Of a stretch of 22,690 nucleotides of DNA, positions 976 to 20,895 are shown piece after piece. Position numbers and translations under genes: made by a program. The notes beneath the pieces are model-generated. The model saw only the letters and a program-made list of their open reading frames with translations, made no database searches and was not told where the DNA came from. The stretch spans positions 9,213 to 31,902 of the forward strand of contig CALZJV010000021.1 of assembly GCA_945787595.1 (NCBI GenBank), in the 5' to 3' direction. Positions within the stretch are counted from its first letter, which is position 1, and the number at the start of each line of letters is the position of its first letter. Source of the DNA: an uncultured Desulfobacterales bacterium. Lineage in GTDB: Bacteria > Desulfobacterota > Desulfobacteria > Desulfobacterales > JAFDCJ01.

Positions 976-1064
976 CCTAATGATACCAAGGGATTTCGGC
1001 GAGACAGTATTGTTTGAGTGTGATATCCAACGCAACTAAAGGGAAAATCCAGGAGTCTTTGAAT

Positions 1065-1280
1065 ATGCCACCCGTTATTGACAAAAAAAAATGCAGCCAA
1101 TGCGGCCAGTGTGCCGACATATGCTCGGAGGATGTGTTCTTTGGCTCCGAGAAAAAAAAGACACCGTTTGTAGCATATCCGAAAGAATGCTGGCACTGCA
1201 ATGCATGCGTGCTGGCCTGCCCCGTGGATGGGGCTATCCGGTTAAGGATCCCGCTACCCATGATGGTGTGTTATAAATAA
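1065..1280 (+). CDS. AprB-like dicluster 4Fe-4S ferredoxin
   Basis: This 71-residue protein has two 4Fe-4S motifs: Cys10, 13, 16, 20 (CSQCGQCADIC) and Cys42, 45, 48, 52 (CWHCNACVLACP). The second motif, preceded by Pro-Lys-Glu, closely resembles the CWECYSCVKMCP segment of AprB, the electron-transfer subunit of APS reductase. It probably relays electrons to or from the upstream flavoprotein in the cytoplasm. The chosen ATG is preceded by AGGAG with 9 bases spacing. A longer in-frame start at 1014 lacks such a site and would add a non-homologous leader. The C-terminal tail ends in IPLPMMV, a motif that recurs as FPLNMLV at the end of the GltD fusion protein near 10060, which suggests a shared docking tail. 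It is separated from its partner by a 323-base repeat-bearing gap. Confidence 0.85.
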   Translation: MPPVIDKKKCSQCGQCADICSEDVFFGSEKKKTPFVAYPKECWHCNACVLACPVDGAIRLRIPLPMMVCYK

Positions 1281-1345
1281 CTCACCGTCTACAGGTAGTC
1301 ATTGCAATCGAAAACATTTTAACAACTAAAAAGAAGGAGGCCAAG

Positions 1346-2323: not shown

Positions 2324-2383
2324 CATTTAAAAAGAGTCCCATCACCATTCAAACGCTTTGCCTGCTAGTATCAGGAGATTGGA

Positions 2384-3883
2384 ATGTTCGATCTGGATGT
2401 TTTTGGGGAAACACTCAAAATCATGTTGAACCTGCGCGGAATCCTTATCCTGCTCTCGGGAACCGTCATCGGGATGATATTCGGCGCTATACCGGGATTG
2501 AGCGGTGTTACGGCCATGGTCGTTTTGATTCCGATGACATTTGGCATGGATCCGGTGACAGCGATGTTGCTGCTTGGCGCTGCCTACGGTGCCGCCACAT
2601 ACGGCGGCGCCGTTCCGGCCATATTGATCAACACACCGGGTGAGCCGCCCAACGCGGCCACGGTTCTGGACGGCTTTCCCATGTCTCAACAGGGAAAATC
2701 AGGCATCGCCCTTGGCGCTGCAGCAACCGCTTCCACCCTAGGGGGATTTATCGGTCTCATCGTCACGTTCTGCTTTATTCCGCTGCTGGCCAAGTTTGTC
2801 ATGGCTTTTTCCTATCCTGAATTTTTCATGATGACATTTTTCGGATTGTCCATTATCGCCGTTTTAGGGGAAGGGACCCTTTTAAAAGGGCTGGCAGCGG
2901 GAGGTTTCGGCATACTGCTTTCCTGCGTAGGGTACGATCCGATGACTTCTGAATTGAGGTATACCTTCGGGATTGAATATCTCTGGGACGGCATTGAGGT
3001 GGTGCCGGCTCTCTTCGGACTGCTGGCCATCGGGGAAGTTATGGATCTGCTGGTGAAGAAAAAGCCAATTGCCGAGCACGAGCTCGTTAACTCAAAAGGC
3101 ACAGGAGTATGGACCGGTGTGATGGCGACCTTGAAACAACCCTTTTTGATCATTCGTTGCAGCGGGATTGGGACTATTATTGGCGCCATACCGGGGGTCG
3201 GGGGCACCGTGGCCGGATTTATTTCCTATATGCACGCCAAACAGACGTGCCGCAATAATGAGAACTTTGGAAATGGAGATGTGCGCGGCGTTATGGCCGC
3301 CGAGGCATCCAACGATGCCAAAGAAGGCGGCGCCTTGTTGCCCACTTTGGCATTCGGCATTCCGGGAAGCGCCGGCATGGCCGTATTTTTGGGAGCATTG
3401 ACCTTGCACGGTATCGATACGGGTCAGGATATTTTCGTAGTCAACCTGGACGTGGTCTATATGCTGCTCATCTCCATGCTGGGATGTCATATCGTAGCCG
3501 CCATGATCGGTCTTTCGCTGGCCGATAAGATGGCCTTGCTAACGAAGATCAGACCTGTGCTTTTTGCACCTATTTTATTTTTGGTCTGCCTGATCGGCTC
3601 CTTTGCGCTTCGCAACAGTATTGGCGATGTCATTGTCACCCTGCTTTTCGGGCTTCTGGGATACGAAATGCGAAAGTTCGGCTTTTCGCGCATCGCTCTC
3701 ATTCTGGGGTTGCTGCTAGGCAATATGGCCGAGATATCATTTCGCCAGACCCTGATGACCGAGGCCAGGATCATGGGCTTCTTTACCCGCCCAATTTCAG
3801 TAATCCTTTTTATTCTTATTCTGGTTTCAGTCATTTTACCTTTTGTTCAGTCCTACCGGCGGAGAAAAATAAATGAAAAATGA
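2384..3883 (+). CDS. tctA: Tripartite tricarboxylate transporter large permease, TctA family
   Basis: This 499-residue polytopic membrane protein has the full TctA domain. The N-terminal half has GAIPGLSGVTAM and the conserved YGGAVPAILINTPGEP region. The second half repeats the fold with GAIPGVGGTVAGFISY followed by the conserved EASNDAKEGGALLPTLAFGIPGS segment. These two glycine/proline-rich motifs form the paired substrate and cation pathway in this family. AGGAG lies 6 bases before the ATG. The gene ends 11 bases inside the next gene (tctB-like), so the two membrane subunits are translationally linked. Length and motifs indicate an intact secondary transporter that works with the upstream periplasmic receptor. 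Confidence 0.94.
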   Translation: MFDLDVFGETLKIMLNLRGILILLSGTVIGMIFGAIPGLSGVTAMVVLIPMTFGMDPVTAMLLLGAAYGAATYGGAVPAILINTPGEPPNAATVLDGFPMSQQGKSGIALGAAATASTLGGFIGLIVTFCFIPLLAKFVMAFSYPEFFMMTFFGLSIIAVLGEGTLLKGLAAGGFGILLSCVGYDPMTSELRYTFGIEYLWDGIEVVPALFGLLAIGEVMDLLVKKKPIAEHELVNSKGTGVWTGVMATLKQPFLIIRCSGIGTIIGAIPGVGGTVAGFISYMHAKQTCRNNENFGNGDVRGVMAAEASNDAKEGGALLPTLAFGIPGSAGMAVFLGALTLHGIDTGQDIFVVNLDVVYMLLISMLGCHIVAAMIGLSLADKMALLTKIRPVLFAPILFLVCLIGSFALRNSIGDVIVTLLFGLLGYEMRKFGFSRIALILGLLLGNMAEISFRQTLMTEARIMGFFTRPISVILFILILVSVILPFVQSYRRRKINEK

Positions 3884-4340
3884 AGAGAAAATTTTCATGA
3901 TATTTCTTCTGTTCATTATGCTTCTGATGGTTTTTTTCAGTTTTAAATACAGCGGCGGATCAAAAATACTTCCCTTGATCAGTGGTGTTTTTTCGGCGCT
4001 AATCATGGGTTTCATGGTGATCATGTCGTTTTCTTCCAAAATTACCTCCTGGTATCAAAAATTTGAGAAGAAATCCGTTTTGTCCGAAAGGACGATGAAG
4101 GGAGATGAGAAAAAAAGAGAGATTTCCGTTATTGCCTGGTTTTCAGGATGTACGGTGGTGATCTACTTTCTTGGTTTTTTAGTCGGTATCCCGCTATTCC
4201 TTTTTTTGTTTTTAAAATTGTGGGCAAAGGAAAGCTGGCTGCTATCGGTGGTTTTAGCGACGGCTGTTTTAGTGGTCGTCTATTTTACATTCGTTTATAT
4301 ATTGAGAGTTCCTTTACACAGGGGAATGCTATTAACCTGA
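3873..4340 (+). CDS. Tripartite tricarboxylate transporter small membrane subunit, TctB family
   Basis: This 155-residue protein has four hydrophobic segments (about residues 7-24, 30-50, 88-107 and 115-146) separated by a charged cytoplasmic stretch rich in Lys and Glu, the usual TctB layout. Sequence conservation in this family is weak. The call rests mainly on topology, size and position directly after tctA, which it overlaps by 11 bases in a different frame. A GGAG lies 8 bases before the ATG, inside the end of tctA. TctB is required with TctA for transport, but its exact role is poorly known. No signal peptide cleavage site is expected. Confidence 0.8.
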   Translation: MKNEEKIFMIFLLFIMLLMVFFSFKYSGGSKILPLISGVFSALIMGFMVIMSFSSKITSWYQKFEKKSVLSERTMKGDEKKREISVIAWFSGCTVVIYFLGFLVGIPLFLFLFLKLWAKESWLLSVVLATAVLVVVYFTFVYILRVPLHRGMLLT

Positions 4341-4505
4341 GGAGACCGGGGGTTTGACCAAGGTGGTCGCCACATGAATCATCGACTGGATCATTTAAAC
4401 TCAGGTCATGGACAATTCGTCTCACTATATCCCAACCCGGATAAACTGGAAAAGTGGCCCCTGCGCGGCAGACCGGGCGCTGGCTATTTAGTAACGCAAA
4501 GCATA

Positions 4506-4586
4506 GATGTCAGGTGTCAGGTTTCGGGTGTCAGGAAGGCGATTCGCTAAATCCTAAATCCTGAAACCTGAACACTGAAACCCTAA
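4506..4586. repeat. Imperfect inverted pair of TGTCAGG/TTTCAGG-type quasi-repeats
   Basis: The left arm (about 4506-4537) consists of runs like gtcaggtgtcaggtttcgg. The right arm (about 4551-4586) carries cctgaaacctgaacactg and related units. Reverse-complemented, the right arm reads as the same TTTCAGG/GTTCAGG theme, so the region can fold into a short-looped imperfect hairpin. It sits in the 300-base gap between the TctB-like gene and the first aldolase gene. The rest of that gap (4341-4505) shows no gene. Confidence 0.6.
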
Positions 4587-4591
4587 GTTTT

Positions 4592-4607
4592 TGACAACAT
4601 GTTGTCA
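4592..4607. promoter_or_regulatory. Perfect 16-bp palindrome, candidate operator
   Basis: TGACAACATGTTGTCA is a perfect palindrome located 33 bases before the aldolase start codon. It overlaps a TTGACA hexamer (4591-4596) that could act as a -35 element, although no good -10 is visible 17 bases further on. Size and symmetry suit a dimeric repressor such as a GntR- or LysR-type regulator. No such regulator is encoded in the window. Confidence 0.45.
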
Positions 4608-4617
4608 GAAAAAATGG

Positions 4618-4635
4618 CCTTAGGGCCTAAGGGAG
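4618..4635 (+). promoter_or_regulatory. SD-sequestering hairpin before the aldolase
   Basis: CCTTAGG-G-CCTAAGG is a perfect 7-bp inverted repeat with a one-base centre. Its 3' arm runs into the GGGAG ribosome-binding site (4631-4635) of the ATG at 4641. Folding in RNA with such a tight centre would require opening the innermost pairs. If it forms, it would hide part of the Shine-Dalgarno sequence. The in-frame ATG at 4599 lies upstream of it and is the less likely start. Confidence 0.35.
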
Positions 4636-4640
4636 AAAAA

Positions 4641-5402
4641 ATGTCGGAAACAAACAAACCCAACACCGAACAGTTAAAAGCAACGCTGGCATTGGCGTGC
4701 CGAATCCTGGGGACCGAAGGACACGATGACTTGAATTTGGGCCATTTGAGTGTCAGAGCTCAGGAGCAATCTGATTTAATGTATATGAAAGGGCGGGGGC
4801 TATGCCTGAGTGAAATCCATGCCGAAGATCTGGTGGCCATCGATTTTGATTACAAGAAGGTGGCCGGCCAGCGTGACGCCCATGGGGAGTTGCCTATACA
4901 CATCGAAATATACAGAAAAAGGCCGGATGTTCATTGTGTCGTGCACACGCATCCGCTTTACGCGACGGCATTTTCCGCCACAGGACAAACCCTGAAGCCC
5001 GTGAACAATGAGGGCGTGCTGTTCGCAAAGCCTTTGCCGTACTTTGACAGGGTGACCGACCTCGTAGTGACTCCGGAGTTGGGTGAGGCCCTTGCAGATA
5101 AGCTTGGGGATGAAAAAGCAATTATCATGAAGAACCACGGTATCGTGGTTGTCGGAGAAAGCATCGAGCAGGCGACCGTCAGGGCCTTTTTATTGGAAAA
5201 GGCTGTCAAAACCCTGTTTGTTGCCAAGGTATTTGGCGAGCCGAACTGGACGGACGACGCCGAGGCGGAACGAAAAGCAAAGCGAATATTTACCGAACCA
5301 AAAACAAAAGCCATGTGGCAGGCCCTTGTGAGGCAGCTGGAGTTCAGAGAAGCGCCACTGAGGATTCTCAAGCTTCTGGAAGAACAGATGGCTAAAAGCT
5401 AA
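4641..5402 (+). CDS. Class II aldolase/adducin family protein
   Basis: This protein of about 253 residues has the class II (zinc) aldolase/adducin fold seen in L-fuculose-phosphate and ribulose-phosphate enzymes. The metal site is intact: Glu in HGELPIHIEIY, the HTH pair in VVHTHPLYAT, and the third His in KNHGIVVVG. The family cleaves or decarboxylates hydroxy- or keto-acid and sugar-phosphate substrates through a Zn-enediolate. The start chosen is the ATG with GGGAG 5 bases upstream. The earlier in-frame ATG at 4599 lies inside a palindrome and has no ribosome site. A second family member is encoded at 10236, with similar N-terminal and metal-site motifs, which suggests both serve related organic-acid pathways next to the transporters. 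The exact substrate cannot be inferred. Confidence 0.85.
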   Translation: MSETNKPNTEQLKATLALACRILGTEGHDDLNLGHLSVRAQEQSDLMYMKGRGLCLSEIHAEDLVAIDFDYKKVAGQRDAHGELPIHIEIYRKRPDVHCVVHTHPLYATAFSATGQTLKPVNNEGVLFAKPLPYFDRVTDLVVTPELGEALADKLGDEKAIIMKNHGIVVVGESIEQATVRAFLLEKAVKTLFVAKVFGEPNWTDDAEAERKAKRIFTEPKTKAMWQALVRQLEFREAPLRILKLLEEQMAKS

Positions 5403-5407
5403 TTACA

Positions 5408-5576
5408 GATATCGTTGATTGGTTGATTAGTTGACTGGTTAAGTGGTTTTAAATATGGATTTATCCCATATTTGCAAAATAATTGGACACTTCAAGTTTC
5501 AACAATCGTAACATTCTGAAATTATGACTATAATTTACCTAATCAACCATTCAACCAGTAAACTATTCAACCAGGT
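5408..5576. repeat. Imperfect inverted pair of TTGATTGG/TTGACTGG quasi-repeats
   Basis: The left arm (about 5408-5446) reads as degenerate units such as ttgattggttgattag and ttgactggtt. The right arm (about 5538-5576) carries cctaatcaaccattcaacc and gtaaactattcaacc, its approximate reverse complement. A loop of about 90 bases separates the arms. The element fills most of the 227-base gap between the aldolase and the EamA transporter gene. Confidence 0.6.
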
Positions 5577-5629
5577 CTGAATTATGATGATGGTACTTTC
5601 ATTCACTTTCTGGATAAAGGTAAAAGAGA

Positions 5630-6502
5630 TTGGCACCAGCGTTTGCCTTAATATCGGCCTTTTTATACAGCGTATCCATGGTAACGGCCCGTATCGGATT
5701 GAAGAACATGGATACATTTTCCGGTGCGTTCATCAGCATGGGGTTTTCGTTTGTCGGCTCCTTGATCCTGTTTATTTTCTTTGTTCCGATCAGCCGGTTC
5801 ACCGGCTGGGGTTTGATATATTTTATCATTGCCGGTTTATCCGGTCCCTGTATCGGCCGGCTTCTGCTGTTTGTCGGAATCAATCGCTTGGGCAGTTCAA
5901 CGGCATCGACGCTTTACTCGATTAAGCCTTTATTCTCGGCAATCGCCGCAGTTCTGATTTTAGGCGAAAGCCTGACAGCCGGAATTGCGGTTGCAACCGT
6001 GATCATGGTTGCCGGACTGGCCATTATCAGCTCCAAAGAAACCGGCAGCCGGATTCAAAGGTCATGGTCGAAAAAAGATCTGATTTTTCCTGTTGCGGCC
6101 GGAGCGGCTTACGGATTCGCACATGTTTTCAGAAAGATCGGATTAAATATAAACCATGATCCCCTGATGGGGGTTGTCGTTCAAAATGTAGCGGCGTTAT
6201 CGTTTTCACTGACACCTGCTCTGTTCAGGAAAAATCGGCATCAGGTCGTGTGGAAAAATCAAACCGCCTGGATTGCCTTCGGATTAAGCGGCATTTTTTC
6301 CGTGCTGGGCCAATTGTCATTGTTTCAGGCGCTTGAGATCGGTAGTGTCATTATTGTATCACCGTTGTCGGCCATCAGTCCGTTGTTCGTTATCGTGATG
6401 GCCGGTATTTTTCTCAAACAACTGGAACGTGTCACCTGGAAGATCACCGTCGGCGCGATTTTTATTGTTATCGGAACGGTTTTGCTGGCTCTTTTTCCTT
6501 AG
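5630..6502 (+). CDS. EamA/DMT-superfamily membrane transporter
   Basis: This 290-residue protein has about ten hydrophobic segments arranged as two homologous halves of about 140 residues, the EamA drug/metabolite transporter layout. The motifs near the ends of the halves fit the family: STASTLYSIKPLFSAIAAVLILGESL in the first and SVIIVSPLSAISPLFVIVMAGIFLKQLE in the second. The only usable start in this frame is TTG, because an in-frame TAA lies 9 bases upstream. An AAAGG 9 bases before the TTG could serve as ribosome site. Members export or import amino acids, nucleosides or small metabolites. Its place directly before the flavoprotein (53-base gap) suggests it handles a substrate or product of module B. 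It is intact in length. Confidence 0.85.
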   Translation: MAPAFALISAFLYSVSMVTARIGLKNMDTFSGAFISMGFSFVGSLILFIFFVPISRFTGWGLIYFIIAGLSGPCIGRLLLFVGINRLGSSTASTLYSIKPLFSAIAAVLILGESLTAGIAVATVIMVAGLAIISSKETGSRIQRSWSKKDLIFPVAAGAAYGFAHVFRKIGLNINHDPLMGVVVQNVAALSFSLTPALFRKNRHQVVWKNQTAWIAFGLSGIFSVLGQLSLFQALEIGSVIIVSPLSAISPLFVIVMAGIFLKQLERVTWKITVGAIFIVIGTVLLALFP

Positions 6503-6555
6503 TTTAGACTGTGGCTGCAACCGATCGATCAAAGATTTAAGTGGAGACATCGATC

Positions 6556-8202
6556 ATGACACATAAACTTGATGATCTGGGAATAATCATTGAAACCGAT
6601 ATTTTAATTTTGGGTTCCGGAGCTGCCGGTTGCGGTGCAGCCATTGGCGCCGCCGAGCAGGGAGCCCGCGCGGTGTTGGTTGATAAAGGAAAGCTTGAGA
6701 GTTCAGGCTGCCTGGGAGGCGGCAACGACCACTTCATGGCTGTATTGAATACCGACCCGGGAACCGACTCTGAGCAGGCACTGGTTGATTTCTACAAAGG
6801 CCCGACCAGCGGATATACACCCGAGATGATTTCTCGCTGGGCGCGGGCCATGCCCGCCATGCTCGATGTGCTGCAGGAGATCGGTGTGGATTTAATTAAA
6901 AATCCTGATGGCACTTTTCTGCGGACCGTTGGATTCGGTCAGCCCGGCAGCTGGTTTATCAATATCAACAAAGGTCAATTGATAAAGCGGCTTCTGGCTA
7001 AAAAAGTCCGGGCCGTCGGTGTTGATGTTATCGACCACGTGATGATCACCAAACTGCTGACAGCCGATAATAAAATCCTAGGGGCCATCGGTTACCATGT
7101 GCTGGATGGATCGCTTTATATTTTCAAGGCCAAATCCGTCATATTGGCGCTGGGCAACAGTGCCAATCGGGTGACAACCAATTCTACGGGAAATCCCTTC
7201 AACACCTGGCACAGCCCGTTTAATACCGGCAGTCAATTCGTGCTCGCTTATGAAGCCGGTGCCAGACTTATTAACCTTGATCTCAAGCAGCTGGCCACGC
7301 TGGTACCCAAAGGTTTCAGTTCCGCCGGTATGAACGGCATCAACAGTGTGGGCGCCCACGAATTGAATGCACTCGGCGAACGATTCATGGGAAAGTATCA
7401 CCCCATGATGGAAAACGGGCCGAGGCTCTTTCAAATTCTCGGAACACATCAAGAACTGATTGAAGGCAAAGGCCCTCCGTTTCACATGGATATGCGCCAT
7501 TGTGACACGGAGGAACTTTATCATTTGCAGCACGTGCTCATGCCTGGAGACAAGGCTACGTTCCTCGACTACTGTGAGCAGAGCGGTATTGATTTCGCGA
7601 AATATCCGATGGAGGTAGAGTTCTCGGAAATCGAGCTCAGCGGTACGCTCATGACCCGGGAAAATTTTGAGTCCACGGTGTGCGGCCTGTTCAACGGTTG
7701 TGTATTTTACAATTTTTCCGGATCCATGTGCAGCGGATACATAGCAGCCACCGAGGCGGCCGCAGCCTCATCGCAGGCCGAAGATCCTCCTTTAATTGAA
7801 CCGGAGGTCGTGCGCCGGGAAAAGGAACGTATCTTTAAACCAATGAATACGGGAGACGGGCTGAGGTACGTGCAATTTGAGAGTGCGATTCGCCAGGTGA
7901 TGAAATACTATATGGGGTTCGTGAGGAACCAGAAAGGCATGCAGATTGCCCTCGAACGGCTCGGCCTGATTGAGAGCTACTTCGATAAGCTACACACAAC
8001 GAACGCGCATGAATTGATGCGTGCCAACGAGGCTGTCCATCTTCTAAAAATATGCCAGCTCGCGATCATGGCTACTATGGAGCGCAAGGAGAGCGGCCGT
8101 ACAATCTATAAAAGAAGTGATTATCCTGAGCGCGATGAAGCCTATTGCAAAATGCTTGCCTTGTGGCAGGCAAACGGTCAGCCGCAAACGGCGTGGATGT
8201 GA
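6556..8202 (+). CDS. AprA/FrdA-like FAD-dependent oxidoreductase, module B
   Basis: This 548-residue cytoplasmic flavoprotein of the fumarate reductase/succinate dehydrogenase/AprA family has no signal peptide. The FAD Rossmann motif GSGAAG is at residues 20-25, and the acidic VLVDKG follows at the end of the second strand. AprA-like features include GGGNDHFMAV near residue 57, the ELNALGERFMGKYHPMM stretch and EGKGPPFHMDM (compare GRGPIYMDT of AprA), and the C-terminal GRTIYKRSDYPERD. The AprA catalytic His segment (GSHSGCCG) is not recognisable, so a different substrate is likely. GGAG lies 9 bases before the ATG. An upstream in-frame GTG at 6541 overlaps that ribosome site and is rejected. 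No separate ferredoxin gene follows. Instead the next gene carries a fused one. Confidence 0.88.
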   Translation: MTHKLDDLGIIIETDILILGSGAAGCGAAIGAAEQGARAVLVDKGKLESSGCLGGGNDHFMAVLNTDPGTDSEQALVDFYKGPTSGYTPEMISRWARAMPAMLDVLQEIGVDLIKNPDGTFLRTVGFGQPGSWFININKGQLIKRLLAKKVRAVGVDVIDHVMITKLLTADNKILGAIGYHVLDGSLYIFKAKSVILALGNSANRVTTNSTGNPFNTWHSPFNTGSQFVLAYEAGARLINLDLKQLATLVPKGFSSAGMNGINSVGAHELNALGERFMGKYHPMMENGPRLFQILGTHQELIEGKGPPFHMDMRHCDTEELYHLQHVLMPGDKATFLDYCEQSGIDFAKYPMEVEFSEIELSGTLMTRENFESTVCGLFNGCVFYNFSGSMCSGYIAATEAAAASSQAEDPPLIEPEVVRREKERIFKPMNTGDGLRYVQFESAIRQVMKYYMGFVRNQKGMQIALERLGLIESYFDKLHTTNAHELMRANEAVHLLKICQLAIMATMERKESGRTIYKRSDYPERDEAYCKMLALWQANGQPQTAWM

Positions 8203-8365
8203 GGGATTGGGGAATAACAAATATTATTGAAACTTGAGACTATAGAAGTATTTGACTCCAATTTCGGACAATTCAATACTTTGTTTCCTTGCAGGCTGCC
8301 TCCTGCATATAACCGCTTAACTGCGTGCCTTGAATTTGTATCGGGAACCTCTATGGAGGATAGTA

Positions 8366-10069
8366 ATGCCGCCAAAATTCAGCAGAGAATTAGAAGAAAA
8401 AATAATTTTTCCGGAGCACATGGCTGATCAGGCTCGAACCTCACCGTGTGAGGCCAATTGCCCGGCCGGCAATCCAATTCAAAAGATGAATACCTTAATT
8501 CAGGAAGACCGGATTGAAGACGCCTTGGCCTACATCAAGTCCAGAAATCCATTCCCGGGAATCACCGGTCGTGTTTGCTCACATCCCTGTGAACACGTTT
8601 GTAACCGCAGCGAATATGATGAGGGTCTGGCCATTCAGGCACTGGAAAGATTTGCGGCCGACCACGCCGATGCAACGCTCGTAAAGCGACCCCAAAGGAG
8701 AGAAAGGACCGGCAAAAAATTGGCGATCATCGGCTCCGGCCCAGCGGGCATGACATGTGCCTATTTTTCTGCACTGTTCGGCCATGATGTAAATGTCTTC
8801 GAGGCCTCACAAACCCTGGGCGGGATTCCGCGGACGGCTATTCCTGATTTTTGGCTGCCGAAAGATATTGTCGATCGGGAAATAGGAAAGGTGCTCGAAC
8901 TCGGTGTTCGGGCCCAAGCCAACACGGTTATCGGCAGGGATATTGCTTTTGAAAATCTCGCGGCGGAACATGATGCCTGTTTGGTTGCCGTCGGAACACA
9001 AAAAGACAGATGCCTGGATACTGACGGCTTCGAGCTGGCCCTTCCGGCCCTTTCTTTTTTAAAACAAATTAACCGGGGCCACCGCGACACCATTGCTGAC
9101 AGGGTTGTCATTATAGGCGGCGGTGGAGTTGCATTTGACTGTGCCTTAACGGCCAAACGCCTTGGTGCCGTGGAAGTTCATATTGTATGTGTCGAAGGGC
9201 TGGAGTGCATGTGTGCCCCTTCGCATGAAATCCGTCAGGCCGAAGCCCAGGGGATAATGATTCATACCTCCAGTATGATATCTGCTGTCCTGGAACGCAA
9301 GGGGAAAACAACCGGCATTGAGTGCTGCGAGATTTCGGCCTTTGAATTTGACGAAAAATCCTGCCTTTCGGTTGAACCCGTTTCGGGCGAAAAAAAGCTT
9401 TTGCCGGCCGACATCGTGATTTCCGCAGTGGGGGTAGAACCCGACCTCAGTTTTATTGCGGATAACAGTCAATTTGAAATATCCCCGGGGGTAAACTTGA
9501 AAGTGGATCCGAAAACCATGGCTACTTCTATGGCAGGGGTGTTTGCTGCCGGTGACGTTGTATCAGGACCATCGAGCGTTGCGCAGGCCATCGGCAGCGG
9601 GCGCCGTGCGGCTGTTGCCATTGATCGGTTTTTCAATAACAAGCGATCGCCGGAGTTGGACCGAATTGTCATTAGTGAAACCTGCCAGATAGTGGCACAA
9701 GAATTAATTTCCCAATCTGCGCCGCATGTGGTCGCGTATGAAGAAATTTGGAATGTTTTCCATCATGAAAAGCGGCAGCGCCAAATGACCGCCAAATTAC
9801 CTGCAGAGACGGCCATGCGTTCATTCGCGGAGGTTGATAAAGGCTTTGAGAAAGATGCGGCAATGATCGAGGCCGAGCGCTGTTTGCACTGCGGCCACTG
9901 CACTTCCTGCGGGTGCTGTGTTGACGATTGCCCCGGCCTCATATTGGAAATGAAGCCTGAAGGGCCGCGAGTCGCCTTTCCGGACGAATGCTGGCATTGC
10001 GGCTGCTGCCGAATCGCCTGCCCGAGCGGTGCGATTCTCTATGAGTTTCCTTTAAATATGCTGGTGTAG
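8366..10069 (+). CDS. GltD-type NAD(P)H oxidoreductase fused to an AprB-like dicluster ferredoxin
   Basis: This 567-residue protein has three parts. Residues 1-115 form the GltD/dihydropyrimidine-dehydrogenase-type Fe-S domain with Cys28, 32, 71, 75 and 79 (CEANCP, GRVCSHPCEHVC). Residues 118-445 form the FAD and NAD(P) double Rossmann unit, with GSGPAG at 123-128, VVIIGGGGVAFD for the nucleotide, and the FAD-closing MAGVFAAGDVVSGP. Residues 505-567 are a dicluster ferredoxin, RCLHCGHCTSCGCC...CP then DECWHCGCCRIACP, ending FPLNMLV. That last domain closely matches the free ferredoxin at 1065. The ATG has GGAGGA 5 bases upstream. Role inferred: it shuttles electrons between NAD(P)H and the adjacent AprA-like flavoprotein. 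GltB is absent, so it is not a glutamate synthase. Confidence 0.88.
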   Translation: MPPKFSRELEEKIIFPEHMADQARTSPCEANCPAGNPIQKMNTLIQEDRIEDALAYIKSRNPFPGITGRVCSHPCEHVCNRSEYDEGLAIQALERFAADHADATLVKRPQRRERTGKKLAIIGSGPAGMTCAYFSALFGHDVNVFEASQTLGGIPRTAIPDFWLPKDIVDREIGKVLELGVRAQANTVIGRDIAFENLAAEHDACLVAVGTQKDRCLDTDGFELALPALSFLKQINRGHRDTIADRVVIIGGGGVAFDCALTAKRLGAVEVHIVCVEGLECMCAPSHEIRQAEAQGIMIHTSSMISAVLERKGKTTGIECCEISAFEFDEKSCLSVEPVSGEKKLLPADIVISAVGVEPDLSFIADNSQFEISPGVNLKVDPKTMATSMAGVFAAGDVVSGPSSVAQAIGSGRRAAVAIDRFFNNKRSPELDRIVISETCQIVAQELISQSAPHVVAYEEIWNVFHHEKRQRQMTAKLPAETAMRSFAEVDKGFEKDAAMIEAERCLHCGHCTSCGCCVDDCPGLILEMKPEGPRVAFPDECWHCGCCRIACPSGAILYEFPLNMLV

Positions 10070-10074
10070 AAATT

Positions 10075-10096
10075 CATTGAGCAATATTGCTCAATG
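10075..10096. promoter_or_regulatory. Perfect 22-bp palindrome after the GltD fusion
   Basis: Both arms read CATTGAGCAAT on their own strand and meet without a spacer, six bases after the stop codon. There is no T-run on the 3' side, so it is not a standard intrinsic terminator. It may be an operator for the downstream aldolase gene (start 10236) or an RNA-end stabiliser. Confidence 0.45.
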
Positions 10097-10235
10097 TCGG
10101 TGGTTCTTTGTCTGTCGTTAGTTGTTGTTGGAAGGATTTTGATCATTTTCGATTGATGTGTATCCAAACTCACCCGAAAAGAGGCATCGGGGGGTTGGTA
10201 CACGCGAGACTCAAAAAGGCATTGAAGGAGGTACC

Positions 10236-10919
10236 ATGGAAGCCATTTCCGAATTGAAAGAAACGTTGATTACCGCTTGTCGCATCCTGGACCGGGAAGG
10301 AATGATGGACGAGCTGGGACATTTCAGCGTGAGGTGCCCGGAGAAGGGCGGTGTATTTATTAACGGTAAAGTCAGCCCGGGGCAGGCAACGGAAGAAGAT
10401 ATCATTCTGCTGGATCTTGAGGGGAACAAACTGGAGGGGGATCTGGAAGCGGCCTCTGAAAGCCCGCTGCATCTTGCCGTATACCAGCGAAGGCCGGATG
10501 TAATGGCAGTTGCCCACACGCATTCCCCCATGGTGGTCACCCTCAGTATTGCCGGGATTCCGCTGCGAACTGTTGAAAATCAAGGGGCAAGTGTCATCGG
10601 GCCAAGCGCACCTGTCTTTGAGCAATACGGATTGGTGGACAGCTTTGAATTGGGGTATGGCGTTGCAGATGCCCTTGGGGACCAGAATATATGCGTACTG
10701 AAATCCCATGGGAATATTGTGGTAGGAGGAAGTATTGAAGAGGTCTGTGTATGGACCATGTGGGCGGAGAAGGCCGCGCGATACCAATACCAGGCGATGC
10801 TTCTGGGCCAACCGCAATGGTATCCCGAGGGGGAAATCGCCAAGATGGTTCAACAGCAGCTTAAAGGCAAGGGCCATATTAGAACTTGGAATTATTACAA
10901 ATGGAAACTATCCCAATGA
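10236..10919 (+). CDS. Class II aldolase/adducin family protein, second copy
   Basis: This 227-residue zinc-dependent class II aldolase/adducin homologue has its metal ligands visible as Glu in ASESPLHLAVY, the HTH of AVAHTHSPM, and His of KSHGNIVVG. It shares the ACRILxxEGxxDxLGHxSV opening with the protein at 4641. It differs downstream, with a WNYYKWKLSQ end. AAGGAG lies 5 bases before the ATG. A longer in-frame reading from 10158 has no ribosome site and an unrelated leader. It closes module B and precedes the TAXI/TRAP genes of module C. It could act on a hydroxy-acid or phospho-sugar acid as an aldolase or decarboxylase. The reaction is not determinable from sequence. Confidence 0.85.
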   Translation: MEAISELKETLITACRILDREGMMDELGHFSVRCPEKGGVFINGKVSPGQATEEDIILLDLEGNKLEGDLEAASESPLHLAVYQRRPDVMAVAHTHSPMVVTLSIAGIPLRTVENQGASVIGPSAPVFEQYGLVDSFELGYGVADALGDQNICVLKSHGNIVVGGSIEEVCVWTMWAEKAARYQYQAMLLGQPQWYPEGEIAKMVQQQLKGKGHIRTWNYYKWKLSQ

Positions 10920-10940
10920 GCAGTGGCTTTAGTTTCCTTT

Positions 10941-10974
10941 CATTTAGTTTGACTGATGTCAGTCAACCCAAATG
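10941..10974. promoter_or_regulatory. Interrupted palindrome upstream of TAXI receptor
   Basis: The arms CATTTAGTTTGACTG and CAGTCAACCCAAATG flank a 4-base ATGT centre and pair at 13 of 15 positions. No T-run follows, so it is more likely an operator or a 5' leader hairpin than a terminator. It lies 50 bases before the start of the TRAP receptor gene. Confidence 0.45.
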
Positions 10975-11023
10975 AAGGGGTGGATCATCGAGGTAACCTT
11001 AAACTAAAATAGGGAGGATTAAA

Positions 11024-12034
11024 ATGCAGAAAAAAAGAACGTTAACAATTGTCATCGTTTTTGTGTTGGTGTTTGCTTTTATTTTAGGGCCGATGGCCGT
11101 ATCGGCCGCTGACAAAAAAGTCACCCGTAAAATGATTCTCGGGGGCAGGTTGGGCGATTCCTGGTTTGTGCTTTCCCAGGCCTTGGCCTATTTTGTGAAT
11201 AAACAGTCCGATTGGCTCAGGCTTGAAGTCGTGGCCACACCAGGGGTGAGCGCTGGCGCTGAGATCGCCAGCAAAGACTATGAGAAATATATCTTTATAT
11301 CCCCTTACTTCGGCATGAAGCTCAATCCGACCTCGAAGCGGATTAACAATTATGACAAGGAGCGCATCATCGGTTTCACTACCGGTAATGTATGGACCTG
11401 GATCACTTATGACAAGAATATCAAAACCGCCCAGGACCTTATCGGCAAGAAGGTATTTATCGGCAGGCCCGGCGGTGCCAGGGCGCACTTCGAGTCCGCC
11501 GTCCTGAAGGAATTGGGTATCCTGGATAAAGTCAAGCTGCTTCAGGGCGGATATGGCGGCGGCAGAAACGCCCTAAGAGACGGGTTGGCGGATGTGGCCG
11601 TGATGAACTTTGATTACGTCCTGCCCGCGGGTTTCAAGAAAGGAGCCTTGATAGAGGACCTCGAAACAAGAAAACCGGTCTATTATATAAACCTTATGCC
11701 ACCTGAGCTCCAAAAAAAATTGGGCATGGTCCCCTTAAAAATTTATGCGGGCGCGTTGGATAAAAAGACACAAAAAGAGGCGGTTTTCGCCTCTATCGAT
11801 TCAATTTACTGGTGCGCGGATGAACGGCAGGACGAGGCGGTGGTTCGTGAGGTCACCCGGATCCTATATGCGAACGCGGACAAGTTTTCCAGTTGGCATG
11901 TCCAGGGAGCGGGTATTAGCGAAGAATCCGTTCCTACCTGGATTATCAAAAAAGGGCAGATGCATCCCGCTGCGATGAAGTATTATAAAGATCAAGGCAT
12001 CAAGGTCAACCCGCTGAGCGATCTCTTGCCCTAA
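11024..12034 (+). CDS. TAXI family TRAP transporter solute-binding receptor
   Basis: This 336-residue secreted receptor has a signal peptide (MQKKR, a hydrophobic stretch, predicted cleavage after MAVSA near residue 29). It lacks a lipobox cysteine and so should be soluble in the periplasm. The mature part has the TAXI-family pattern: a SWFVLSQALAYFVN helix, VVATPGVSAGAE near residue 70, and KKVFIGRPGGARAHFESAVLKELG with the glycine-rich GGYGGGRNALRDGLADVAV segment that binds the ligand carboxylate. GGGAGG precedes the ATG. The fused TRAP permease follows 189 bases later, the usual pairing for TAXI systems. Family ligands include glutamate, 2-oxoglutarate and other carboxylates. The ligand here is not predictable. 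Confidence 0.9.
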   Translation: MQKKRTLTIVIVFVLVFAFILGPMAVSAADKKVTRKMILGGRLGDSWFVLSQALAYFVNKQSDWLRLEVVATPGVSAGAEIASKDYEKYIFISPYFGMKLNPTSKRINNYDKERIIGFTTGNVWTWITYDKNIKTAQDLIGKKVFIGRPGGARAHFESAVLKELGILDKVKLLQGGYGGGRNALRDGLADVAVMNFDYVLPAGFKKGALIEDLETRKPVYYINLMPPELQKKLGMVPLKIYAGALDKKTQKEAVFASIDSIYWCADERQDEAVVREVTRILYANADKFSSWHVQGAGISEESVPTWIIKKGQMHPAAMKYYKDQGIKVNPLSDLLP

Positions 12035-12057
12035 ACATCATTTCTACATGGTTGGGG

Positions 12058-12148
12058 CCGCCGGCGGGCCAAAAGCGATGGCGACCGCCGGCGTCAACCT
12101 GTGAGCAATGATCAAAACTGGGCATGGCTGGGGGCCGTTACTGATCAT
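12058..12148. repeat. GC-rich repeated palindrome and inverted ATGATCA pair in the receptor-permease gap
   Basis: CCGCCGGCG occurs twice (12058-12066 and 12085-12093). The self-complementary CGCCGGCG cores can pair into an 8-bp stem with a 19-base loop. Further on, ATGATCA (12108-12114) and TGATCAT (12142-12148) form a second inverted pair. A hairpin here could lower expression of the permease relative to the receptor, a common ratio in TRAP operons. No gene is seen in this 189-base gap. Confidence 0.4.
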
Positions 12149-12223
12149 GGAGTTTCTCTTGTCTGCTGAATGTCCCAGTGAAACGAGTAAGGCAAACCTA
12201 TACTTTATGTCGGAGGTTCGGAA

Positions 12224-14155
12224 ATGGGGGAAACGGAGAAACCGAAATTAGCTATAGAAAGGATTGTGAGTGTCGCTCTACCTATTGTGGCCCTTGTCAT
12301 GATTCTCTATCAGCTGGTCTACACCCAATATTTAATTCAGGGCCCCACAGCGCATAAGATTACGCATCTTGGATTGGCCTTCATGGTGGTGCTTTTGTCG
12401 CTTATGCATAAGGAAAAAGAAGGCCGGCCTTTGAGGTGGGTGTTGCTCGCGGTTTCATTGGGCTTTACAATATACTTGATGGTCAATCTCACTGAGATCA
12501 TGATGTATCGCCAATCTATTCCCATACCCTCCGATATCGTTGTCGGGGTGATCGTCCTTATCACCACTTTTATTGTGGCCTACCAGGTGCTTGGTAAAAC
12601 CTTTATTATTATTGCCGGGACTTGCATCGTTTATCTGGTATTGGGACGGTACTTTCCACACCCCTTTACCGTGGCGCCCGTTTCTTTTGCCCGGATTATC
12701 ATGTGGCTCAGCGCCGGGGTGGGCATCGAACAGGGGGTATACGGGCCGATCCTGGGTCTTTCCGCGAATTACCTGTTCCTGATGATTGTGTTCGGGGGGA
12801 TGCTCTACGCTTTCGGCGGTGTCAGATTTATCATGGGCCTGGGAAAATGGCTGGGGTCAAAGTTTAAGAGTGGACCCGCCGCCGTAGCCGTTGTTGGCAG
12901 TTCTTTGCTGGGGAGTATGACCGGAAGCACCGTGGCGAACGTGACCATTACAGGTGCCTACACCATCCCTCTCATGAAGAAGGGGGGCTATGAACCCAAA
13001 CAGGCGGCGGCTATTGAAGCGGCCTCATCCAATGGCGGTCAGATTATGCCGCCGATCATGGGCGCAACGGCTTTTATTATGTCCGGTTTTACCGGAATCC
13101 CTTACATCAAGATCGCTTTGGCGGTTTTAGTTCCGGCCATACTTTATTACCTCGGGCTGCTGATGTATGTCCAGATCAATGCCTACAAGTTGGATATTGT
13201 AGTCGAAAAGGAAGCCATCGATGTAAAGGCGCTCCTGTGGGATGCACCTCTCTTTGTTGTGCCTCTGGGCGTCCTTGTCTATTTGCTGGCCAAGGGGTTT
13301 TCACTTCCCTTTGTTGTGTTCTGGAGTATAGCGAGTCTCGTTATCCTGAGTCTGGCCCTCTGTTTCCGAGAAGAGGCACGTTTGAATTTCAAGGGAGTTA
13401 TTGAAGCGCTCACAAAAAGCGCCCGGACCGCTTGTGACGTGACAATCATCAACGCCCTGATCGGTATTGTTGCAACGTGCATCGAGACCAGTGGATTAGG
13501 AATTAAGCTTCCCCTGCTGGTGGGAGAGATCAGTCAGGGGATTATTTTCATCGCCCTCATCATAACAATGATAAGCTCTATTTTCGTCGGTATGGGTGTT
13601 CCGACGCCCGCTGCTTACATGCTGGTCGCAATAGGGGCTGCCCCTGCGCTTGTCAAAATGGGAGTGCCCATATTGCAGGCACACCTTTTTCCCATGATTT
13701 TCGCGGTCTTTTCGCATCTTACACCGCCAATCGCAATAGGGGCTCTGGTGGCATCCCAGCTTGCCGAATCCGAATACTGGCCGACTTCCTGGGAGGCGCT
13801 TAAAGCGGCATCCACAGCGTTTCTGCTGCCCTATTTTATTATATATGCCCCTGTCATTGTTCTTCAACCAGATTCAGGAATATTTATTTCCGTTATCCAG
13901 CTTGCGGCCATTCCTCTGGGTGTGCTCGCGCTTCAGATATTCTATTCCAGCTACTTTTTCGGTCATCTGGAAAAACCGAGGTGGATTGCCTTTGGTGTAA
14001 CAGCCCTTCTTTTTTTCATCTCGGTGTTCTCAAAAAGCTGGATATTCCTTGTAATGGGTGTCGCATTATTCATCATTAGCGCTTTGGGGCAGATAAAGAA
14101 AAAAAGACAAGCAGCAGGAGCACCGGAGTTGTCGGAAGGGACCTCTTTGACTTAA
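12224..14155 (+). CDS. TRAP transporter permease, DctM/DctQ fused (TAXI-associated)
   Basis: This 643-residue integral membrane protein has the small (DctQ-like) and large (DctM-like) TRAP subunits in one chain. Residues 1-150 hold four hydrophobic segments of the small-subunit part. From about residue 165 the large-subunit core shows the family GSSLLGSMTGSTVANVTITGAYTIPLMKKGGY motif, followed by EAASSNGGQIMPPIMGATAFIMS, which forms the first half of the sodium and substrate site. GMGVPTPAAYML and LTPPIAIGA in the second half are the matching repeat. The ATG has CGGAGG upstream. It takes up the ligand delivered by the TAXI receptor, driven by an ion gradient. Length is normal for the family and the gene appears intact. 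Confidence 0.93.
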   Translation: MGETEKPKLAIERIVSVALPIVALVMILYQLVYTQYLIQGPTAHKITHLGLAFMVVLLSLMHKEKEGRPLRWVLLAVSLGFTIYLMVNLTEIMMYRQSIPIPSDIVVGVIVLITTFIVAYQVLGKTFIIIAGTCIVYLVLGRYFPHPFTVAPVSFARIIMWLSAGVGIEQGVYGPILGLSANYLFLMIVFGGMLYAFGGVRFIMGLGKWLGSKFKSGPAAVAVVGSSLLGSMTGSTVANVTITGAYTIPLMKKGGYEPKQAAAIEAASSNGGQIMPPIMGATAFIMSGFTGIPYIKIALAVLVPAILYYLGLLMYVQINAYKLDIVVEKEAIDVKALLWDAPLFVVPLGVLVYLLAKGFSLPFVVFWSIASLVILSLALCFREEARLNFKGVIEALTKSARTACDVTIINALIGIVATCIETSGLGIKLPLLVGEISQGIIFIALIITMISSIFVGMGVPTPAAYMLVAIGAAPALVKMGVPILQAHLFPMIFAVFSHLTPPIAIGALVASQLAESEYWPTSWEALKAASTAFLLPYFIIYAPVIVLQPDSGIFISVIQLAAIPLGVLALQIFYSSYFFGHLEKPRWIAFGVTALLFFISVFSKSWIFLVMGVALFIISALGQIKKKRQAAGAPELSEGTSLT

Positions 14156-14228
14156 AAGAGATTTGACGATTTAGCAATAGGGTTGTGGTTCGGTTAGGAC
14201 ACTTGTTCTGAAATTAGGAGGATTTGGA

Positions 14229-14438
14229 ATGATCCGTAGCATTGATGCCAGGGTATGTGTGGGCTGCAGTATCTGCGAAATGATTTGTCCGGGCGATGTG
14301 ATTGTCATGGATTATGAAAAAATAGCCAGAATCAAGTATGCCCAGGATTGCTGGACGTGCTTCAGTTGTGAGCTGGCCTGTCCGGTTAAGGCTATCGATG
14401 TGCATCCCTTTCGTAAACCAAGGCCCATGGCCTGGTAA
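14229..14438 (+). CDS. AprB-like dicluster 4Fe-4S ferredoxin, module C
   Basis: This 69-residue protein has two 4Fe-4S motifs: Cys10, 13, 16, 20 (CVGCSICEMIC) and Cys41, 44, 47, 51 (CWTCFSCELACP). The QDCWxC lead-in to the second cluster matches AprB and the other two ferredoxin domains in this window. The tail is different (HPFRKPRPMAW). AGGAGG with 7-base spacing precedes the ATG. The gene is followed after 26 bases by the flavoprotein gene, so the order is ferredoxin then flavoprotein, the reverse of module A. It is presumably the electron carrier for that flavoprotein. Confidence 0.88.
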   Translation: MIRSIDARVCVGCSICEMICPGDVIVMDYEKIARIKYAQDCWTCFSCELACPVKAIDVHPFRKPRPMAW

Positions 14439-14464
14439 TCGGCATACGATCTAAGGAGGTTGGT

Positions 14465-16156
14465 ATGCAGGCAGATAAAACTTTGTGGGAGGTCTTGAAA
14501 TCCGATGTCCTGATTATCGGAGGTGGTTTTGGTGGACTGTGGGCTGCTCTGCGGGCGGCCGAGGGCGGCTCTTCCGTGATCCTGGTCGATAAATCTTTCG
14601 CCGGTAAATCCGGACATTCTTATTTTGCCGGGGGGGCGATGATGGTTTTGCTTCCGGAAGATGATCTGGAAGAATATGTTCACGATATCGCCTTGGGCAA
14701 CGAGTGGCTTGTGGATCAGGAAATGGTGGCCGCCGTCTTTGATGGGTCTTATGATCGGCTCAAGGATTTGGAGTCTTTTGGCATCCCGTTTCGCAAAAGT
14801 GGTGATGAGTATATTTGGACTAAGGCCCGGGGTACTGCGAATGTCAAAAATTTATGGCCGGAGCATGCCACAGCAGCGGATGAGGTGACCATCCTGCGGA
14901 AGGTTGCGCTTTCAAGAAATGTCCACATAGTTGATCATGTTTATGTTTACGACCTTGTCAAGAGTGATGATGGCAGCGTTACGGGAGCTGTCGGCGTTGG
15001 CGTGAAGGCTCTGAGGAATTATCTTTTTCACACAAAGAGTGTCATCGTCGCTACAAACTCCGGCGGTTACCGCGGTCATCATCTCGCCTGCGAATTGCAG
15101 GGGACCGGGCCATTTATGGCCTACGATGCCGGAGCAAGAATTAAAAATCCCGAGTTTCACTACATCAATATCCGGCCGGCCAGGCATGAGATCGAGGGCT
15201 CGGGAATTTTGCCGGCCATTGGTGCCAGGTGGACCAATGCAAAAGGTGTCCATTATATGGAAACCTATGATCCGGTGTTGAAGGACAGGGCGCCGGTCTA
15301 CAAAATCGTTGTGGCCGCCGCCAAAGAGGCCCTGCAGGGGAATGCGCCCATATCCATCGATGTCGAGGGAATGACGGAGGAAGAACGTGAAAAATTCCGT
15401 GTTCTTCAGGTGAGCCATGGCTGGATGCCGATTCTGTTCGAAAAATGCCGGCGCGAAGAGGGCTATGATCCATTGCTGGACAACATCGAATGGCAGCCGG
15501 CCTACGAGGCGAATAAACTCGGTGTTGATGCGGATGTGAACTGCAAAACCGCATTAGACGGTTTGTTTGCTGCCGGGATGGCCAGACCCCTGGGCATCAA
15601 TCCGTTTACAGGCTGGTCCATTGCTTCGTGCACCTGGTCTGGGTACCGAGCAGGTGAGCGTGCCGGCGCATATGCCAAAAACACAAAATTAAGAACTATC
15701 GATTTTTCCAGGTTGACGCAAAGCAGGGAAAAATTTTTTAAGCCGCTGGAATTCGAAGACAGCGTAGATCCCGACGACCTGATTCATGAGCTGCAGAAAA
15801 TCCTCTTTCCGGTGGATGCGCTGATAATCATGAGCGAACCCAAATTACAGCATGCCCTGGATCAGGTCTTGACGTTGAAGGCTGAGAAACTGCCCTGTTT
15901 GCAAGCCGCCGATGTCAGAACCCTGATCAAAGTCAAGGAAACCCAGACCATGATGCTTTCGGCGGAAATGACATTGATGGCAGCGATGATGCGAAAAGAA
16001 ACCCGGGAGAACATATTTTATCGGGAAGATAATAATGAGGTTGATAATAAAAACTGGCTGAAATGGATTTTTGCGGAAAAAGGCCATGATGGCGAAATTC
16101 ATTTTTCAACCGAAGATATTCCCTTCGAGAAATATCCGTTTCAGCCTGATGTTTAG
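14465..16156 (+). CDS. AprA/FrdA-like FAD-dependent oxidoreductase, module C
   Basis: This 563-residue cytoplasmic flavoprotein of the succinate dehydrogenase/fumarate reductase/AprA superfamily has its FAD motif GGGFGG at residues 19-24, with VILVDK at the end of the second strand and SGHSYFAGG as the flavin-contacting loop. The C-terminal FAD segment reads GLFAAGMARPLGINPFTGWSIASC, and the chain ends with MMRKETRENIFYREDNN and an acidic tail. AAGGAGG precedes the ATG. It is paired with the ferredoxin just upstream and with the TAXI-TRAP transporter, so an acid imported by that transporter may be its substrate. Neither the HYTMGG active-site segment of fumarate reductase nor the GSHSGCCG segment of AprA is present, so the reaction is unassigned. 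The three flavoproteins in this window are clearly different from each other rather than recent copies. Confidence 0.88.
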   Translation: MQADKTLWEVLKSDVLIIGGGFGGLWAALRAAEGGSSVILVDKSFAGKSGHSYFAGGAMMVLLPEDDLEEYVHDIALGNEWLVDQEMVAAVFDGSYDRLKDLESFGIPFRKSGDEYIWTKARGTANVKNLWPEHATAADEVTILRKVALSRNVHIVDHVYVYDLVKSDDGSVTGAVGVGVKALRNYLFHTKSVIVATNSGGYRGHHLACELQGTGPFMAYDAGARIKNPEFHYINIRPARHEIEGSGILPAIGARWTNAKGVHYMETYDPVLKDRAPVYKIVVAAAKEALQGNAPISIDVEGMTEEEREKFRVLQVSHGWMPILFEKCRREEGYDPLLDNIEWQPAYEANKLGVDADVNCKTALDGLFAAGMARPLGINPFTGWSIASCTWSGYRAGERAGAYAKNTKLRTIDFSRLTQSREKFFKPLEFEDSVDPDDLIHELQKILFPVDALIIMSEPKLQHALDQVLTLKAEKLPCLQAADVRTLIKVKETQTMMLSAEMTLMAAMMRKETRENIFYREDNNEVDNKNWLKWIFAEKGHDGEIHFSTEDIPFEKYPFQPDV

Positions 16157-18096: not shown

Positions 18097-18150
18097 TCTT
18101 CATGTCATGATGGACATAAATGCTATGAAATAAAGGAGTCGGTGCCTGCA

Positions 18151-18789
18151 ATGTTCGAAACTAAAGACAGCGTGGATTTTTACTGGGACCCGGTCTGACC
18201 GTGGTGTTGGATTACATCCAGGTGGATGATAGACGTCGGGTTGCAAAAACACATTCACATCAATTGGAAGCTTTTTAGCCTCAAACTAATTAACAGGGGA
18301 CGTGAGGTTAAGGAGGATTTCAAGATATTGCATGAAATCGGTCTGAAAGCTTTGCGTGTTGCCGCTGCGGTCCGCAGTGAATTTGGCAACGATGGAGTTG
18401 GAAAGATATATACCGCTCTGGGAGTGCGCTATCATCACGACCAGGAGGACATCGATGAGCCAGCAGTTTTGGAGGAAATCCTGCAAAATGGTGGTTTTCC
18501 CACCAGCCTGGTTGCTTCAGTTGACGATAAAGCCTGGGATAATGATATCCAGACCGATATGGATCACGCCATTGCCAAAGCCGGTAGCGATGTCGGCGTG
18601 CCGTTGATTGTGCTTGATGGGGGAGCCGGCGCTGGTTTTTTTGGCCCGGTCATGAGTCCGGCCCCTACAGGTAGGCAAGCTGTGAAGTTTTGGGATGCCA
18701 TCATTGCTGCCGGTAGTACACCCGGGTTTTTTGAGCTTAAACGGACGCGGGAAATTGGTCCATTGTTTGGGGAGCGTCCAGAGATTTAG
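18151..18789 (+). CDS. DsbA-family (Rv2466c-like) selenoprotein with UPWC active site
   Basis: Read with the in-frame TGA at 18196-18198 as selenocysteine, this is a 212-residue thioredoxin-fold protein. The start MFETKDSVDFYWDPV is followed by U16-P17-W18-C19 and then WITSRWMIDV. This aligns with the FWFDPLCPWCWITSRW active site of mycobacterial Rv2466c (mycothiol-dependent nitroreductase), with TGA exactly at the nucleophilic Cys19. The rest also fits that family: DVGVPLIVLDG, FFGPVMSPAPTG and STPGFFELKRTRE near the C-terminus. An AGGAG lies 12 bases before the ATG. Homology continues on both sides of the TGA in one frame, and a hairpin with an AGGT loop lies 17 bases after it. A stand-alone start at 18226 would remove the active site. 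A plain nonsense mutation in a Cys-type gene is the alternative. Confidence 0.82.
18215..18228 (+). promoter_or_regulatory. Candidate bacterial SECIS hairpin
   Basis: CATCC-AGGT-GGATG forms a perfect 5-bp stem with a 4-base loop containing GG. The loop Gs are 23 and 24 bases after the TGA at 18196-18198. In E. coli fdhF the SECIS loop (AGGUCU) has its Gs about 19 to 20 bases after the UGA. Spacing and loop composition therefore fit SelB recognition. A competing 5-bp stem TGGAT/ATCCA sits just upstream. Confidence 0.6.
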
Positions 18790-20530: not shown

Positions 20531-20617
20531 TTATCCTAAAACCTTCTGAAGAATCTTATTAAGCTCCTGCATCTGATACGGTTTTACAATCGCACCACAA
20601 AAACCATAGTCCGTAGT
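20531..20617 (-). pseudogene. C-terminal tail of a receiver (hybrid kinase) domain, orphan fragment
   Basis: On the - strand the frame reads DYGFCGAIVKPYQMQELNKI and ends LQKVLG-stop at 20531. This is the usual last helix of a response-regulator receiver domain, with the conserved Lys-Pro (VKPY). No upstream part of a receiver domain is present. The frame meets a stop at about 20621 and the flanking sequence belongs to a truncated oxidoreductase gene in another frame. It is the second half of a rearrangement scar. Confidence 0.55.
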
Positions 20618-20895
20618 AAATCACATCTCTCCAAGCGCTCTATTTCTCTTTTTACCTCATCTGGTAATGTATTCGTTTTATACGCATTACGTTGTTCAGA
20701 CAGTGGTTCAAACCTTTCAGTAACGACTCTGTTTCTGTAATGCTCTGGTTTTTCGACTGGATCGAAATTTTCTGCGTAAAGGTCAGAAACTTCAACTCTA
20801 TTACCATCAGCCTCAAAAGTTTTTATCGCTGTATCCCTGAGCCAACCATTGAACGAGTTTGGTTCAGGATGGCTATACACTATCAATACGTTCAC
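20584..20895 (-). pseudogene. Truncated NAD(P)H-quinone-oxidoreductase-like flavodoxin-fold gene
   Basis: A GTG start with GGAG upstream opens MNVLIVYSHPEPNSFNGWL, the flavin-binding start of the NQO1/KefG-type flavodoxin-fold family. RLERCDLL follows, where intact members continue into the FQFPLWWFGMPA motif. After ERCDLL the frame instead reads RTMVFVVRL and stops at 20584. Only about 95 of the usual 190 or more residues are kept, so FMN/FAD and NAD(P) sites are incomplete. The junction lies around 20612-20625, next to a receiver-domain tail in a different frame. A short functional protein is unlikely. Confidence 0.72.

Follow-up and report, generated by a model that had tools for sequence, protein, structure and literature searches.

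The window, a stretch of 22,690 nucleotides (nt) from an uncultured Desulfobacterales bacterium (contig CALZJV010000021.1, positions 9,213 to 31,902), carries a gene that is shortened by standard gene calling and that, judging from its sequence, most likely encodes a complete enzyme with selenocysteine (Sec) in its active site. We consider it very probable that the gene encodes a DsbA-fold oxidoreductase of the Rv2466c type as a selenoprotein, with an in-frame TGA in place of the codon for the nucleophilic Cys. The features of the gene are as follows.

18151..18789, plus strand: putative Sec-containing Rv2466c-like (DsbA-fold) oxidoreductase of 212 residues, with the active site U16-P-W-C19 and a TAG stop, assigned by translation and homology
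18196..18198, plus strand: in-frame TGA, read as Sec (residue 16), opposite the nucleophilic Cys of CPWC, assigned by alignment and by relatives that also carry a TGA there
18215..18228, plus strand: predicted apical hairpin of a selenocysteine insertion sequence (SECIS), CAUCC-AGGU-GGAUG, beginning 17 nt 3' of the TGA, assigned by comparison and not significant when taken alone
18135..18140, plus strand: AAGGAG, the likely ribosome-binding site for the ATG at 18151, from the sequence
18226..18789, plus strand: open reading frame (ORF) of 187 amino acids from standard table-11 gene calling (P0001), lacking residues 16-19 (U-P-W-C)

The frame from 18151 to 18789 contains exactly one internal TGA, and translation could alternatively start from a GTG at 18142 instead of the ATG at 18151. 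A changed genetic code in the window was rejected as unlikely, because TGA still serves as the terminator in 4 of the 18 other listed ORFs. The read-through product matched the Pfam family PF22234 (Rv2466c-like) with an E-value of 1.9e-49 over query residues 15-198, scoring 168.7 bits against a cut-off of 27 and covering positions 1-180 of the 180 in the profile; it also matched PF01323 at 1.8e-10 and carries D-P-x-U-P. In a phmmer search, query residues 5-207 were aligned to the Rv2466c chain 4zil with an E-value of 1.6e-40, the best among the Rv2466c structures, with residue 16, encoded by the TGA, facing the first Cys of CPWC; the active site U16-P17-W18-C19 follows the C-P-W/F-C pattern of PF22234 with the TGA in the first position. 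The predicted fold of the window protein was that of Rv2466c, and in this model the 187-residue product would miss Sec16 and Cys19 along with the first strand and the beginning of the first long helix. These results bear out the sequence-only reading that preceded this analysis, which had proposed an Rv2466c-like DsbA-family protein, placed the TGA where CPWC has its nucleophilic Cys, described the homology as continuous across the TGA in one frame and expected a conventional gene finder to start at 18226 and lose the active site, the 187-residue protein being all that table-11 calling returned. A search of NCBIfam gave a single weak match, to enoyl-CoA hydratase (E-value 0.026, far below the cut-off), which was taken as chance.

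The same TGA was found in many other genomes. A scan of the genome collection for the pattern DPxUPWCW gave at least 120 loci, and 112 of the 120 listed were members of the family by frame and motif; the other eight (L032, L039, L053, L054, L060, L097, L102 and L111) were chance pattern matches and were dropped. Several other pattern loci are incomplete, the sequence ending inside them, and L106/L126 contains a masked stretch that was read as X. Three of the listed loci are labelled Desulfobacterales (L049, L080 and L106), and the remaining ones bear mostly Acidimicrobiia or other actinobacterial names, some being plain 'bacterium'. In an even sample of 291 genomes from the order of G001 (the genome of L080, labelled Desulfobacterales), the family was present in 11, with the TGA in six, an open frame with Cys in four and only the end of the domain in one. 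The phylum sample had the family in 4 of 297 genomes, one with the TGA, and the sample from the class of G004 (the genome of L001, labelled Acidimicrobiia) had it in 153 of 296, with a TGA copy in at least 25 genomes among the matches listed. The sequence-only reading had looked for support in a TGA aligned with Cys in several species, and for refutation in a lack of other homologues with the TGA or in a sequencing error. The TGA was found at this place in the six genomes of the order and in the Acidimicrobiia loci, and the identical TGA in these six other genomes makes it implausible that the window's TGA is a read error.

Downstream of the TGA, a freeze of silent sites and a covarying hairpin fit the expectation for a SECIS. 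In a silent-site test on 72 Sec genes with pairwise protein identity below 85%, the codons from +1 to +12 after the TGA were constrained by 0.75 bits per codon above expectation (nine scorable columns), compared with 0.08 bits per codon beyond +14 (171 columns; Mann-Whitney p 3.4e-6). Seven of the eight columns with the highest constraint lay at +3 to +11 and one at -1, and some later columns (+26, +28 and +58) were also high. The DPxUPWCW search pattern fixes parts of codons -3 to +4 and leaves +5 to +11 free. The Acidimicrobiia consensus, GACGGCCC-GUU-GGGUCGUC, has a fold energy of -12.2 kcal/mol. Covariation was analysed in 40 of the 72 sequences, which were chosen by hand for variety in the hairpin stretch and include all four from Desulfobacterales. 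In this set, 89.1% of the cells pair versus 82.1% after shuffling, and changes on both sides of a pair occur in 14 cells versus 2.7; none of 500 shuffles reached the observed pairing, number of both-side-change cells or covariation score, kinship inflating these shuffle tests. Because the sequences were chosen for variety, the both-side counts overstate how common such changes are. The pair between the third positions of the Thr and Val codons appears as GC, UA, CG and AU, all of them silent in Acidimicrobiia, and on measures other than the number of pairs with a both-side change every slid version of the hairpin scored lower. The register of the window hairpin differs slightly from that of the Acidimicrobiia hairpin. 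In all seven Sec genes of the Desulfobacterales type (the window, L121, L123, L126, L175, L178 and L179) the Ser-Arg pair within this stretch is encoded by TCC AGG, whereas the Cys relatives use TCG or TCA followed by CGC, with TCC AGG in none of four (Fisher p 0.003, several of the genes being close kin). Rfam at gathering scores gave no match within the window, and two weak matches to eukaryotic families that turned up when 18150-18350 was scanned permissively were taken as chance. Comparison across relatives supports the window hairpin as a putative SECIS.

The machinery for Sec insertion, whose absence the sequence-only reading had also counted as a refutation, was scored in relatives of the window's own genome, namely the six Sec-carrying genomes of the order. 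SelB (379-398 bits), SelA (610-626 bits) and SelD were present in all six, the best SelD copy of each having a TGA, and tRNA-Sec was present in five. In the class sample of G004, SelB was above the cut-off in 161 of 296 genomes, comprising 24 of the 25 listed Sec carriers versus 137 of the 271 others, among which are unlisted carriers (p 2.5e-6, uncorrected for kinship); the remaining listed carrier, G296, had tRNA-Sec at 77 bits.

Several observations on the machinery, the hairpin and the nearest relative weigh against a selenoprotein. In G001 (L080, CP070694), which does have SelA, SelB, SelD and the Sec gene, no tRNA-Sec was found above the cut-off genome-wide or near selB, and all four Cys genomes of the order also carry tRNA-Sec, so that the machinery alone does not distinguish Sec from Cys forms. 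Both-side changes occur in three of the eight hairpin pairs, a number that 34 of 500 shuffles also attained and that a slide of +3 matched. The energy of the window hairpin was not significant (z -1.64, 16 of 200 shuffles being as good), nor was plain folding of longer cuts of the region (z -0.65 to 1.20), and fold energies did not separate Sec from Cys genes: L178 has an altered stem and folds otherwise, and the Cys gene L174 adopts a different shape that is more stable than the folds of the Sec genes, so that energy alone cannot tell the two apart. The closest genome, G783, is syntenic with the window and shares 92% nucleotide identity over the gene and about 90% identity over dapF and a glyoxalase-type gene. 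Its copy (L179, G783:C89) is open from the TGA onward, the coding part before the TGA being absent from the assembly, and the two copies differ by 23 non-synonymous and 14 synonymous codon changes, the ratio of non-synonymous to synonymous rates (dN/dS) being 0.48. Because of the missing N-terminal part and this ratio, at least one of the two copies may be decaying, or G783 may be misassembled. These two findings also favour an explanation in which the TGA is a true stop, either in a disrupted (pseudo)gene or through a sequencing error, as does the departure of the window at 4 of the 98 sites with at least 90% conservation among 105 relatives, which themselves differ at 2.1 such sites on average and at 9 at most. 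Against a true stop, however, are the occurrence of the identical TGA both in Acidimicrobiia and in the six further genomes of the order and the SECIS signature of silent-site constraint and covariation. Furthermore, the window keeps all 83 sites that reach at least 95% conservation among the relatives, and dN/dS 3' of the TGA is 0.07-0.09 against L121, L175 and L178, with dS near saturation (1.6-2.3); the ratio against L123 was not computable. We regard a true stop as very unlikely.

It could also be argued that the functional product is the 187-residue protein from the ATG at 18226, without a redox motif, since this is what gene callers report in the window and in relatives. However, conservation extends through the TGA and into the part before it, at both the protein and the RNA level, and the shorter product would lack the active-site residues and the parts of the modelled fold named above, which makes this explanation scarcely credible. 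A different alternative is compatible with a selenoprotein and concerns its novelty, namely that the window protein belongs to the published set of DsbA-like UxxC selenoproteins, and we hold this to be possible but somewhat doubtful. In its favour are the PF01323 match, the D-P-x-U-P motif and the listing of DsbA-like UxxC proteins in five reports: nine Sec sequences of COG2761 from the Sargasso Sea in 2005 (PMC1088965); four proteins in genomes, including the Deltaproteobacteria Desulfovibrio desulfuricans and Anaeromyxobacter, in a 2006 survey (PMC1794560); DsbA 1, 2 and 3 with 63, 18 and 5 Sec sequences in the 2008 Global Ocean Sampling (GOS) study (PMC2398784); 45 proteins in 41 organisms in a 2016 survey (PMC5029168); and two PF01323 forms, one with the motif DxxUP, in a 2026 review (PMC13188914). 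As described there, the Sargasso Sea, GOS and genome-survey proteins share the PF01323/COG2761 superfamily and UxxC with the window protein, and the comparison of these sets with its PF22234 subfamily is one of descriptions; the older 'DsbA' sets may include that subfamily. The sequence-only reading had held Sec in the Rv2466c family to be undescribed. Our literature search found no paper linking selenoproteins to Rv2466c, little on selenoproteins in Acidimicrobiia beyond co-mentions in papers on other subjects, and for the UPWC motif unrelated papers only. DsbA-like UxxC selenoproteins as a kind are nevertheless already in print, so the claim of novelty is softened and the window protein is a further member of that kind.

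Among characterized proteins, Rv2466c of Mycobacterium tuberculosis (PF22234; PDB 4zil, 5xur and 4nxi), which activates a prodrug according to the title of 4nxi, has the nucleophilic Cys where the window protein would have Sec. Unlike it, the window protein comes from a Desulfobacterales lineage, and any use of mycothiol by it would be hypothetical. NCgl2339 and NCgl2478 of C. glutamicum belong to the same cluster concept (DsbA-Mrx1, CPFC) but are Cys enzymes, according to their description (PMC8280269), in which the first Cys of the cluster is nucleophilic and the second resolving, the activity is that of a reductase and not an oxidase, and the best electron source for NCgl2478 is mycothiol/Mtr/NADPH. 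FrnE of Deinococcus radiodurans (5cnw and 5xwh) has the DsbA-like fold in common with the window protein. In the window gene, SelB and Sec-tRNA would recode the UGA at 18196, aided by the hairpin at 18215-18228, and Sec16 would take the place of the nucleophilic Cys with Cys19 remaining as the resolving Cys. Since Sec16 would be the nucleophile and Cys19 is retained, a selenenylsulfide between them could form, as suggested by Rv2466c chemistry. The enzyme would probably reduce disulfides or small-thiol mixed disulfides in the cytosol, for which mycothiol is a plausible electron donor in Acidimicrobiia and another thiol or thioredoxin is more likely in Desulfobacterales.

The distribution of Sec and Cys was placed on a quick tree of 157 hand-chosen rows with a single kind of support value, where 'Cys' denotes Cys at the first motif position, many rows being without the second. 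Parsimony gave 15 Sec/Cys changes, at least eight of which are forced by starred branches. The window falls in a set of 27 rows (support 99), of which 23 are Cys and four Sec. Sec predominates in a separate set of 95 rows (support 100), with 67 rows against 28 for Cys, and those rows of the set whose record is known are labelled Actinomycetota, Microthrix or plain 'bacterium'. A third Sec type, DPLUPWCWQTARW, occurs in L017, L022, L025, L028 and similar loci, most of which are labelled Acidimicrobiia or Acidimicrobiales; its branch is long and joins other long branches, and its position is unsure. G006, the genome of L017, has an additional separate copy without the stop and with a CPFA motif (L122). 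CPWA or CPFA, in which the first Cys is kept and the second lost, is common in relatives from the class sample (L129-L137, L139-L148, L150-L154 and L156-L158).

The subfamily is probably hidden in public databases by protein entries that are truncated after the TGA. Among the best 120 of 2763 relatives of the window protein, 99 were full-length, with CPWC in 96 and an altered motif in 3, and 21 were short, starting after the TGA position; one close Sec/Cys pair is the window protein and P0004, with 76% identity. With L067 from Acidimicrobiia as the query, the best 120 of 2156 comprised 70 proteins of at least 200 residues (46 with CPFC, 23 with CPWC and one lacking the motif); the remaining 50 are short and begin with MTARWV (43), VTARWV (6) or LTARWV (1), directly past the TGA. 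The letter U was seen in none of these 240 listed sequences. The TGA would also account for the shortness of those listed proteins whose DNA was not inspected. In the L067 search, source names of the listed proteins included 'mycothiol-dependent nitroreductase Rv2466c family protein' as well as 'disulfide bond formation protein DsbA'. Both are carried by short entries too, for which they mislead on function because the active site is lost.

A conserved operon was not found, no ORF besides the family gene being common to the window and L171, L172 or L121, and the largest common neighbour cluster among the pattern loci comprised 16 of 113 loci. Elsewhere in the window, positions 13-16156 form a dense region of uptake and FAD-enzyme genes with TctC/TctA/TctB, two class II aldolases, EamA, an NMT1_3 binding protein and a DctM-type permease, interspersed with fumarate-reductase-like flavoproteins. 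On the minus strand, a Flavodoxin_2-like ORF at 20584-20895 (E-value 1.3e-10) ends early, other downstream frames are full of stops, and it looks like a decayed fragment.

Taken together, we lean toward a wider view in which one Acidimicrobiia clade of Rv2466c-type proteins usually has Sec in the active site (67 of 95 tree rows), Sec having been repeatedly exchanged with Cys, separately also in Desulfobacterales, in a subfamily concealed by truncated database entries; Desulfobacterales, if they are without mycothiol, would have to use another reductant. If this is true, selenium is added to an enzyme class that handles mycothiol mixed disulfides, in a selenoprotein that would be frequent in Acidimicrobiia, and close Sec/Cys pairs such as the window protein and P0004 would offer a natural test of the benefit of Sec in a UxxC enzyme.
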